64,000 nt of DNA from Pareuzebyella sediminis. Its GTDB lineage: Bacteria; Bacteroidota; Bacteroidia; Flavobacteriales; Flavobacteriaceae. Below the pieces are notes generated by a model. That model was given only the letters and a program-made list of their open reading frames with translations, was not told the origin of the DNA and did no database searches. The position numbers and the translations under genes are program-made. Shown one piece after another: positions 51,221 to 54,780 of the stretch. The stretch is taken from contig NZ_VTZS01000001.1 in the NCBI RefSeq assembly GCF_008367235.1, forward strand, positions 620,001 through 684,000, written 5' to 3'. Every line of letters starts with the position of its first letter. Position 1 is the stretch's first letter.

Positions 51221-51748
51221 ATGAAAATTTTGGGTATTGGTTCTCGGATAGAACATAAAGATTATGGAAAAGGAGTTGTAACGAATGTGTCTTCAAACTA
51301 CTATTGGGTCACTTTTATGGAAAAGGGTTTGGAAACTATTGCCATAGATTCTGAATTTGATATCATTGAAGCACTTCAAAGTGATGTGGATACCGTTAGT
51401 TTTTTTGATATCGAAACCTCCTTGACCAAAATTTTACGCAAATGGGGCGACACCCACGAGAAGGTTGCACTGGCCGATAAATGGCGTGGGGGCAAATTAA
51501 TACTCGAACCTAATGACGGTTTGGCGAATAAAGAAATTCCAATCGACACTTTTTTCCATAAAATTGTGATGGTACGCGACCGTATTCGAGTAATGGAACA
51601 AAAAATAAACAGCAGCAAAAATTTGGATGATCAAGAAAAGGTGGACTTGCAACAATACATTACGCGAATCTATGGTAGTCTCACTAGTTTTAATGTACTT
51701 TTCAAGAATAAAAGTGACCAGTTCGTTGGGGACCGTAGTAAAGGGTAA
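51221..51748 (+). CDS. Conserved hypothetical protein with Tudor-like N-terminal segment
   Basis: A 175-residue protein of a flavobacterial family I do not know by function. The first 45 residues (GSRIEHKDYGKGVVTNVSSN ... WVTF) follow the GS-x-V-x-H-x-x-F/Y-G-K/R-G-x-V pattern of the C-terminal Tudor-like domain of UvrD/PcrA; in this window the UvrD-like helicase has GSLVNHSRFGRGKV. The rest is charged and helical, with a coiled-coil-like segment at about 120-150. The gene is divergent from uvrA (120 bases between starts) and convergent with the DUF4130-type gene, so a link to DNA repair or transcription is plausible but unproven. Confidence 0.7.
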   Translation: MKILGIGSRIEHKDYGKGVVTNVSSNYYWVTFMEKGLETIAIDSEFDIIEALQSDVDTVSFFDIETSLTKILRKWGDTHEKVALADKWRGGKLILEPNDGLANKEIPIDTFFHKIVMVRDRIRVMEQKINSSKNLDDQEKVDLQQYITRIYGSLTSFNVLFKNKSDQFVGDRSKG

Positions 51749-51808: not shown

Positions 51809-52585
51809 TTATACCACTTGCTTCTTTTCGCTCAAGTACTTCCAATAGCGTCGGGGTACATGTTGTGCGTGTAGTTTCGGATTAATTCTCGACCTGATAT
51901 TCGTGCTTTTGAAGTAATTAGCCCATAATTCTTGATAGCTATATTCTTCAGTGATGAAGCAATCATTTCTTAAGATACTGTTCGCAAAAACTCCCTGTAA
52001 ATCAAGGGAAACAATTTCCACTCCCGTTAGGTTATAAAAAATTCCATATTTACGTTTTACATCATAAATAAGCCAGTGTTGGTCTGCGTATCGAGAACGA
52101 AAATGTTTAGAAATAAGTGGTAATACATCAAAATCGGGTTCTATAGTAGCAAAATAGATGTCATCTTTGGTCAATTGAAAACGCACAAAGGCCTCCATTC
52201 GGTGTTTTTCGCGCCCCACACTTTTTGCTAATTGTACGATTTTCAAAACTATATCATCCGAGTAATCGGACTGTATCGCGAATCTTTTCGCAAAGAGCTT
52301 CCTGATGTAACGATAAAGCAACAGTTCTACATTTTTAGATTCGCTCATGAACGCAAAATATATATTTTTCAGGGCCCTATGACTTTTCTTGTCGATACCG
52401 TTCCAAACGCGCTTGGCCTTTTCTACATGGGTGAAAATAATTGTTGAATCAGAAAATAGTCCGTTTTGTTGAATGGAACTTCTTTGAATATCGACCACTT
52501 GAATTTTCTCTTCGAAGGCTACGAAGACACTGGTCAAAAATCCGTTAAAACTTCCATCGTAGATTAAAATTTTTGAGTTGTCCAT
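51809..52585 (-). CDS. TIGR03915-type (DUF4130) putative DNA metabolism protein
   Basis: A 258-residue protein matching the DUF4130/TIGR03915 family: the N-terminal ILIYDGSFNGFLTSVF and the C-terminal HWLIYDVKRKYGIFYN and ARINPKLHAQHVPRRYW-like region (RSRINPKLHAQHVPRRYW) are typical. The family is found next to, or fused to, TIGR03916 radical SAM proteins and UdgX-type uracil-DNA-binding proteins, and its biochemical role is unknown. The stop of the radical SAM gene is next to this start (2 bases), so they form a tightly coupled pair. Confidence 0.82.
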   Translation of the reverse strand: MDNSKILIYDGSFNGFLTSVFVAFEEKIQVVDIQRSSIQQNGLFSDSTIIFTHVEKAKRVWNGIDKKSHRALKNIYFAFMSESKNVELLLYRYIRKLFAKRFAIQSDYSDDIVLKIVQLAKSVGREKHRMEAFVRFQLTKDDIYFATIEPDFDVLPLISKHFRSRYADQHWLIYDVKRKYGIFYNLTGVEIVSLDLQGVFANSILRNDCFITEEYSYQELWANYFKSTNIRSRINPKLHAQHVPRRYWKYLSEKKQVV

Positions 52586-52587
52586 AA

Positions 52588-53850
52588 TTAATTGAATAAT
52601 CGTAGTTGCGTACTAAACTTATCTCTAAACTTTCCTGAAGAATTTTGAAGGATCAGCCCTTTTATTTTAGAGGCATCCAAATCTTGATGTTTCCAACCTT
52701 GGGTGTCACAAACGATGAAATATTTTGCCCTGTTCAAAGCCACGCCTATTTTCTTCAGATGTTCCCAGTTGAGTTTTCTAAATCGTCGAGCGCTAATAAT
52801 TTTGTGAATCGATTGAATGCCTAACCCTGGAACCCTAGCCAATACAATTTTATCGGCCCTGTTAATATCAACCGGAAAATAACTCAAGTTTCGCAAGGCC
52901 CACCCCAACTTTGGGTCCACATCAATATCTAAATTCGGGTGGTTTTTATTTAGCAGTTCAGCCACCCTAAAACCGTAAAAACGCAATAACCAGTCAGTCT
53001 GATATAATCTATTCTCGCGCAGCATGGGCACACTGCTTCCCATAGGAGGCAATCTCTTATCTTCTGCCACTGGAACATACCCCGAATAATACACGCGTTT
53101 CATACCATACTTCTTATAGTAATAATCAGCGGAATACATGATATCTTTGTCGGTTTCACCGGTCGCTCCGATAATCATTTGGGTACTCTGACCTGCAGGG
53201 GCATATTTGGGGGTGCTTTTAATGATTTTCTTCTCTTCTTGGTATCGCAGGATTTCATTTCTTATCTTCTGCATCGGTTTGATAAAATCTTCATGTTTCT
53301 TCTCGGGCGCCAATAGTTTCAGACCTGATACGGTCGGAACTTCAATATTAACGGAAATACGATCGGCATATAAACCGGCCTCTTTCATCAATTCTTCACT
53401 GGCTCCCGGGATTGATTTGAGATGAATATATCCATTAAAGTTTTCCTCCGTTCTTAATTTTTTGGCTACGGATACCAGACGCTCCATGGTATAATCAGGA
53501 CTTTTAAAGATACCAGAGCTGAGAAAAAGACCTTCGATATAATTACGCCTGTAAAAGTTAATGGTAAGATCGACGATTTCCTGAATTTTAAAGGCGGCCC
53601 GTTCAATATCATTGCTTCTACGCGAAACGCAGTAGGCACAATCAAAAATGCAGTAGTTGGTCAGTAAGACCTTTAAAAGGGATATGCATCTACCATCTTC
53701 GGAATAACTGTGGCAAATTCCCATGCCCGAGCTATCGCCCAGACCTTTATTTGTATTGGTTCTTTTGCTTCCACTACTTGAACACGATACATCGTATTTA
53801 GCGGCATCGGCCAATATGTTGAGTTTTTGCTTTATCCTTTCAAATTGCAT
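52588..53850 (-). CDS. TIGR03916-type radical SAM protein with C-terminal helix-hairpin-helix, putative DNA repair or modification
   Basis: A 420-residue radical SAM enzyme. The cluster motif CIFDCAYC (Cys67, Cys71, Cys74) is the family CxxxCxxC. Further cysteines at positions 23, 46 and 55 could hold another cluster. The last third has a helix-hairpin-helix segment, DINRADKIVLARVPGLGIQSIHKII, which in this family suggests DNA binding. The reaction is unknown: photoproduct lyase-like repair and base modification are both possible. It is transcribed with the DUF4130-type gene and is divergent from the LexA-like repressor, sharing an operator-rich 138-base gap. Confidence 0.84.
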   Translation of the reverse strand: MQFERIKQKLNILADAAKYDVSCSSSGSKRTNTNKGLGDSSGMGICHSYSEDGRCISLLKVLLTNYCIFDCAYCVSRRSNDIERAAFKIQEIVDLTINFYRRNYIEGLFLSSGIFKSPDYTMERLVSVAKKLRTEENFNGYIHLKSIPGASEELMKEAGLYADRISVNIEVPTVSGLKLLAPEKKHEDFIKPMQKIRNEILRYQEEKKIIKSTPKYAPAGQSTQMIIGATGETDKDIMYSADYYYKKYGMKRVYYSGYVPVAEDKRLPPMGSSVPMLRENRLYQTDWLLRFYGFRVAELLNKNHPNLDIDVDPKLGWALRNLSYFPVDINRADKIVLARVPGLGIQSIHKIISARRFRKLNWEHLKKIGVALNRAKYFIVCDTQGWKHQDLDASKIKGLILQNSSGKFRDKFSTQLRLFN

Positions 53851-53863
53851 AATAGATGTAATT

Positions 53864-53945
53864 ATTCCAAAAATATGGATATATTCCTAAATATGGAAAT
53901 ATTCCATAAAATATTTTGGACTTATTCCAAATACAATTATATTTG
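53864..53945. promoter_or_regulatory. Operator array and divergent promoters between radical SAM and XRE-S24 genes
   Basis: ATTCC occurs four times in the same direction (53864, 53883, 53901 and 53924), each followed at 13-17 bases by GGA in the first three. The best pair is ATTCC-TAAATAT-GGAA (53883-53898). For the plus strand, TTTG (53915-53918) lies 19 bases before TATATTTG (53938-53945), a consensus promoter for the repressor gene. For the minus strand TATTTTTG (53868-53875) lies 17 bases before the radical SAM ATG. Both promoters overlap the repeats, as expected of a repressor's operators. Confidence 0.75.
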
Positions 53946-53988
53946 AGAGCCGTTGAATGTAGTTTCACTTAAAAACACACATATTTCG

Positions 53989-54780
53989 ATGGTGGAAGAC
54001 AATAAAATAGCAATTATGGAAAATGAGCTTACGGTGAAGCGTTTTACTGAAGTAAGAAGGAATTTGGGATTTACCCAAGCGGAATTTGCAAAACTTCTTG
54101 GTGTTTCCAATACGACCGCAGACATTGAGCGTGGGCGTACCAAACTATCCGGAATGGTAGTCGCACAGCTCTTGAAGCAGTTTAAGATAAATCCGTTATG
54201 GCTTTTTGGAGAAAGCGAGAATCAATATTTGGAAACGTCCAAGACCAGCGTTATACCTAAAGTTATAACCGTTGATTCGGAAGACAGGGAGAATATGGTA
54301 CTTGTGAACGCAAAGGCGGCTGCAGGATACCCCCAAAATATTCAAGATACCAGTTGGTATCGTCAATTACCGGCGTTCGACCTTCCTATTCCGGAATTTC
54401 GCAATGCCACTTACAGAGGTTTTCAGGTAGAGGGCGATAGTATGTTGCCCAATTTAAAACCAGGGGAATGGGTTTTGGCGCGTGCCATCGAACATATCGA
54501 CGATGTGAGTCCTAATAAAATGTATGTCGTGGTCTTAGAAGACGCCGTTCTGGTTAAAAAAGTGGAAAAGCGTCCCAATTCAAACAATATCACCTTGGTT
54601 TCGCTGAACGAGGCGTATCCGCCTTATGAGATTAAGCCTTTTCAAATTCAGGAAATTTGGCAGGTCAGTAGTAGAATTACATTTGGCGAAGATGCCAATA
54701 CCGAAAAAGGCCTGCTAAAGCAACTGCAAGAATCGATGGATGAGCTTAAAAGCCAACTCAAGCACGTCAAAAAAGTATAG
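53989..54780 (+). CDS. LexA-like XRE-S24 transcriptional repressor
   Basis: A 263-residue regulator from the ATG at 53989 (54016 is a second possible start). The N-terminal helix-turn-helix is FTQAEFAKLLGVSNTTADIERGR (about residues 28-50). The C-terminal S24 domain has a self-cleavage site AAAGYP (Ala112-Gly113), nucleophile Ser151 in GDSMLPN, and lysine in VLVKK (Lys190). This is the LexA/UmuD autoprotease arrangement, so RecA-stimulated cleavage is possible. It has a promoter inside the operator array and probably represses itself and the divergent pair. No phage genes are present, so a prophage CI repressor is unlikely. It ends 2 bases from the convergent GNAT gene. Confidence 0.82.
   Translation: MVEDNKIAIMENELTVKRFTEVRRNLGFTQAEFAKLLGVSNTTADIERGRTKLSGMVVAQLLKQFKINPLWLFGESENQYLETSKTSVIPKVITVDSEDRENMVLVNAKAAAGYPQNIQDTSWYRQLPAFDLPIPEFRNATYRGFQVEGDSMLPNLKPGEWVLARAIEHIDDVSPNKMYVVVLEDAVLVKKVEKRPNSNNITLVSLNEAYPPYEIKPFQIQEIWQVSSRITFGEDANTEKGLLKQLQESMDELKSQLKHVKKV

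Follow-up and report, generated by a model that had tools for sequence, protein, structure and literature searches.

The window analysed here, a stretch of 64,000 nucleotides from the flavobacterium Pareuzebyella sediminis, encodes a self-cleaving repressor that, in all likelihood, is the SOS master repressor of its genome and controls, via three operators, both its own gene and a divergently oriented pair of genes for a clamp-tagged DNA repair or damage tolerance system. The regulatory part of this idea is correct but already published (PMC8565304), so that a little-known SOS circuit is confirmed in a further genome. Two points go beyond that earlier study: the glycosylase label attached to the circuit's two-gene operon does not fit the operon of the window, which corrects the idea of a uracil-DNA glycosylase system, and the radical SAM enzyme TIGR03916 carries a QLxLF tail. 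Recruitment to the replication clamp would offer a specific starting point for work on this orphan pair of enzymes. The evidence for the genes of the window, their critical residues, the operators, the regulon sites and the QLxLF tail is sequence-based throughout.

The pair consists of a TIGR03916 radical SAM protein of 420 amino acids (positions 52588..53850, minus strand) and, as its second gene, a TIGR03915/DUF4130 protein of 258 amino acids (51809..52585, minus strand). In family profile searches, these proteins scored 668.6 bits (cut-off 343.5) and 268.1 bits (cut-off 112.25), respectively, and the ORF coordinates bear out the coupling of the two genes by a 2-base gap that had been noticed from the sequence alone. 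Gene order, near-zero gap and scores far above the cut-offs are shared with the TIGR03915/TIGR03916 pairs of other Bacteroidota, from which the pair of the window differs by its head-to-head position with the repressor. The repressor gene lies on the plus strand (54016..54780). Its ORF is also open from position 53989, and the gap of 138 bases between repressor and pair given by the sequence-only reading holds if the ATG at 53989 is the start; since the homologues mostly align from residue 8-10 onwards, the start is probably the ATG at 54016 and the gap is then 165 bases. The uvrA gene does lie about 700 bases away, as had been pointed out, but no GGA-N5-TCC site is present in front of it. Its nearness is therefore no evidence of co-regulation, and uvrA was ruled out as a regulon member. 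A 175-codon ORF without a Pfam or NCBIfam match (window positions 51221-51748) is kept beside uvrA in related genera (loci L064, L065 and L074).

Like E. coli LexA, the protein encoded at 54016..54780 has the make-up of a self-cleaving S24 repressor of SOS genes, but its DNA-binding domain and its operator are different, and it is not a member of that group. Peptidase_S24 was matched with 52.8 bits and HTH_19 and HTH_3 above their cut-offs; the DNA-binding part matched HTH_19, HTH_3 and HTH_31 only, and a winged-helix domain of the LexA type was not found. The cleavage residues previously read from the sequence, Ala112-Gly113, Ser151 and Lys190 (numbered from the ATG at 53989), are present and invariant in 61/61 homologues. 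The protein is orthologous to the "non-canonical LexA" of the Flavobacteriaceae, a class of repressors that run the SOS response in flavobacteria (Sanchez-Osuna et al. 2021, PMC8565304). Two groups of these regulators have been described, one of which recognizes GGA-N5-TCC, an operator that has been tested by experiment; binding was demonstrated by EMSA with mutated sites in relatives, RT-qPCR after mitomycin C treatment revealed induction of the regulator and of several predicted SOS genes, likewise in relatives, and the tested non-canonical LexA protein was derived from S. agarivorans (PMC8565304). The repressor of the window combines an HTH_3-type domain with Peptidase_S24, and GGA-N5-TCC sites are present both in the promoter of the repressor gene and at SOS genes of P. 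sediminis, as in the GGA-N5-TCC group. By domains, Ala-Gly and Ser-Lys residues, operators in its own promoter and target genes, which include the COG1573-COG4277 operon, we found no feature that would distinguish it from the published repressors (PMC8565304). This operon is among the predicted targets of the published regulon (PMC8565304), and the pair of the window corresponds to it, an equation of TIGR03915/TIGR03916 with the COG families made in this analysis.

The "operator repeats" anticipated for the divergent gap turned out to be three GGA-N5-TCC palindromes, located at 53877..53887 (GGATATATTCC), 53895..53905 (GGAAATATTCC) and 53918..53928 (GGACTTATTCC), with their starts 18 and 23 bases apart. 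The 15 matches to this pattern in the whole window equal the number predicted by chance, whereas three palindromes in the gap were obtained in none of 20,000 shuffles of the gap.

Promoters of Bacteroidota follow the consensus TTG-N19-TAnnTTTG. On the repressor side, a well-formed promoter of this type, TTG-N19-TATATTTG, can be recognized at 53916..53945 (plus strand), and its -33-like TTG is overlapped by the third operator; on the side of the pair, a -7-like TAnnTTTG element is present at 53868..53875 (minus strand), and the first and second operators lie just upstream of it. Such an overlap of operators and promoters on both sides would be expected for repression by occlusion. Very probably, the repressor controls the back-to-back two-gene repair unit. 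Bound to the three operators, it would hold down both itself and the pair; RecA filaments formed upon DNA damage would trigger its self-cleavage at the Ala-Gly bond, and transcription of both sides would be released, along with that of dinB, SRAP and further SOS genes.

The sequence-only reading had treated the repressor as the regulator of a local cassette, and one may imagine it to be derived from a prophage or another mobile element rather than to be the SOS master. Its DNA-binding domain is indeed of the phage CI type (domain search; PMC8565304), and no other arrangement is as common as its position next to the pair. Nevertheless, identical sites accompany further SOS genes in this genome, no second homologue of the protein was found there at E<=1e-20, and many genera possess the repressor without the pair; we consider a purely local regulator highly unlikely, and the protein is better read as the SOS master repressor of its genome. 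Homologues detected in viral contigs were weak only. The tight form of the operator, TGGAW5TCCW, occurs 28 times in the genome versus 13 and 11 times for the control pattern. Intergenic sites precede an SRAP/dinB locus, a second dinB, a second SRAP gene, a radical SAM gene and an RNase_T/GIY-YIG gene, a set that matches the published regulon (PMC8565304); as the regulon was assembled from pattern matches and selected genome stretches, it may be incomplete. A scan of genome contigs with one protein as the query recovered no more than four loci. The other sites listed lie within genes and are probably chance occurrences. A possible further SOS gene encodes a DUF763 protein (L120:1278-2489), 10 bases before whose ATG the site TGGAATTATTCCA is found. 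In addition, two similar 86-codon ORFs (L126:2803-3063 and L127:2861-3121) are each located about 320 bases from tandem GGA-N5-TCC sites; for the one in L127, a match to a Pfam family was not found.

How far this arrangement is conserved was assessed in 149 Flavobacteriaceae genomes, one per genus. Close orthologues of the repressor (E 1e-69 or better, the next group being at 1e-31 and weaker) are present in 54 of them, and GGA-N5-TCC precedes the repressor gene in 51-52 of these 54, mostly with spacings of 18-19 and 22-23 bases. TIGR03916 was detected in 33/149 genomes and is hence lacking in the majority of the genera. Repressor and TIGR03916 co-occur in 24 genera; they are arranged head-to-head in 19 and lie within about 6 kb of each other in two more. 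All 19 adjacent pairs have GGA-N5-TCC sites in front of them. Where the repressor is encoded elsewhere, sites were found before two of the five pairs and none was seen before the other three; in the nine genomes with TIGR03916 that lack a repressor orthologue, the pair is never preceded by such a site. In Zunongwangia, too, GGA-N5-TCC sites precede the pair. Among 26 genomes of more distant relationship, six have the other published motif, CTAA-N5-TTAG, instead of GGA-N5-TCC (0.3 expected). Operators, cleavage residues, genome-wide sites and this conservation together lend good support to the earlier proposal that the repair pair is induced by DNA damage and controlled by a repressor that cleaves itself.

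In the literature, the operon goes by the name of a COG1573-COG4277 uracil-DNA-glycosylase system for base excision repair (PMC8565304), and a fusion of TIGR03915 with UdgX is in fact the partner of TIGR03916 in the Alphaproteobacteria examined (among them Agrobacterium, Phaeobacter and Azospirillum). These operons share TIGR03916 and a TIGR03915 domain with the window; there, however, TIGR03915 is fused to a UDG domain of the UdgX type, while the protein of the window is unfused, matches DUF4130/TIGR03915 only and contains no UDG domain. The partners in Spirosoma and Bacteroides are annotated in the same way as the window protein, and no UdgX above the cut-off is encoded in the genome of P. 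sediminis, where the only stretch detected reached 27.8 bits against 189.95. Since the protein lacks the domain and no UdgX of the genome passed the cut-off, the label does not fit, and we rejected the glycosylase reading as hardly tenable for this pair. The name of the TIGR03916 family, "putative DNA modification/repair", invites another interpretation, namely a system that modifies DNA bases, which had also been entertained from the sequence alone. It gains no support from our data and is very improbable: the gene remains subject to a damage repressor, with which it shares its promoter region, and TIGR03916 is found in only 33 of the 149 genera. A unit for repair or damage tolerance, composed of a radical SAM enzyme with a putative clamp-binding tail and its TIGR03915 partner, is the reading that we prefer, and the TIGR03916 enzyme might reverse or process a DNA lesion.

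The radical SAM triad CxxxCxxC of the TIGR03916 protein is formed by C67, C71 and C74. Outside of it, C23, C46 and C55 are each conserved in 70 of 71 TIGR03916 proteins, and they perhaps constitute a second metal site. A structure model of this enzyme was unusable (pLDDT 37), and searches by sequence found no solved relatives of either member of the pair. The C-terminus of the TIGR03916 protein reads QLRLF-N (tail KFRDKFSTQLRLFN; QLRLF codons at 52594..52608, minus strand), a candidate beta-clamp-binding motif. QLxLF is the beta-clamp-binding consensus and is usually found at C-termini (PMC4549789), the place that it also takes in TIGR03916. Of the 71 proteins of the TIGR03916 set, 69, with alphaproteobacterial ones among them, carry this sequence or a near form of it at their C-terminal end or close to it, compared with one of about 700 other ORF tails, that of the DUF763 protein mentioned above; the two dinB proteins of the genome, inspected as a positive control, do not end in QLxLF. 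We found no description of this tail of TIGR03916 in the literature searched. The conserved C-terminal motif suggests that TIGR03916 is recruited to the replication clamp, with the proviso that QLxLF is a short motif from which we infer binding to DnaN. The tail might instead serve protein turnover or the binding of another partner, in which case the pair would not visit the clamp: the clamp evidence comes from sequence only, and two members of the set lack QLxLF. We regard this as unlikely, given that the consensus sits at the usual C-terminal place of clamp-binding motifs (PMC4549789) and that QLxLF persists in a small ORF after the loss of the whole catalytic part.

This small ORF is found among 13 genera whose genomes lack TIGR03916 but still have TIGR03915 opposite the repressor (e.g., L062, L063, L065 and L091). 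Such lone TIGR03915 proteins keep D10, G15, F44, W171, D175 and R178, but mostly lack residues that never vary in paired proteins, such as F133, R135, R165, R233, P244 and W248, and they are more diverged than paired ones at equal repressor distance. They are not dead genes: intact copies are present in 10 of 12 genomes of one genus, the two without being genomes of about 68% completeness, and dN/dS amounts to 0.17 and 0.13 in the two close pairs. On the best repressor tree, the lone state requires eight changes, at least four of which are forced by well-supported branches; as this is a gene tree of the repressor, transfer may be involved.

Seven of these 13 genera have, in the place of TIGR03916, an ORF of 53-62 codons with QLxLF at its end; it is flanked by the operators on one side and, at a distance of a few bases, by TIGR03915 on the other (loci L171-L180, L064, L066, L067, L069, L070 and L073). 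Across the ten genomes available from a single genus, conservation is seen at the beginning (IQDxLxFFAxAGT) and at the end (QLSLF) of this ORF but not in its basic middle part. Similarity of the start to that of TIGR03916 is clear in two genera (0/500 shuffles each), varies in degree within the one-genus set and was not detectable in four other genera; descent from TIGR03916 is likely for some of these ORFs and is based on position and tail for the others. Three of these ORFs were tested and are covered by no Pfam or NCBIfam family. The small ORF is a candidate for an SOS-induced, clamp-binding microprotein, and such clamp-tagged ORFs would represent a new kind of damage-induced microprotein. 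Tentatively, and as a plausible rather than a probable course of events, we propose that TIGR03916 acts as a radical SAM repair enzyme docked on the clamp and that it was reduced in several flavobacterial genera to an SOS-induced microprotein of about 60 residues (first helix, basic linker and QLxLF). Combined with an altered TIGR03915 devoid of the residues invariant in pairs, this microprotein would make up a unit without catalytic activity that targets the sliding clamp in the course of the damage response.

For TIGR03915 itself, a weak model (pLDDT 65) gave a list of structure matches filled by RecJ, Cdc45 and PAP phosphatase, with Z scores up to 8.8. The hhalign comparison of the family yielded probabilities of 0.18 for RecJ and 0.4 for NrnA, no better than the 0.11 obtained for an unrelated control, so that a DHH/DHHA1 fold, lacking sequence support, is to be taken as a lead only. 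Small hydrophobic pairs of residues (mostly AV, AM or AI) form the C-termini of lone TIGR03915 proteins and of the near relatives of the window protein: they are present in 11/13 lone copies, in 10/10 genomes of one genus, in 9/19 paired proteins beside the repressor, and in 3/42 other TIGR03915 proteins. These ends are possibly a degradation or docking tag, or they reflect only shared ancestry.
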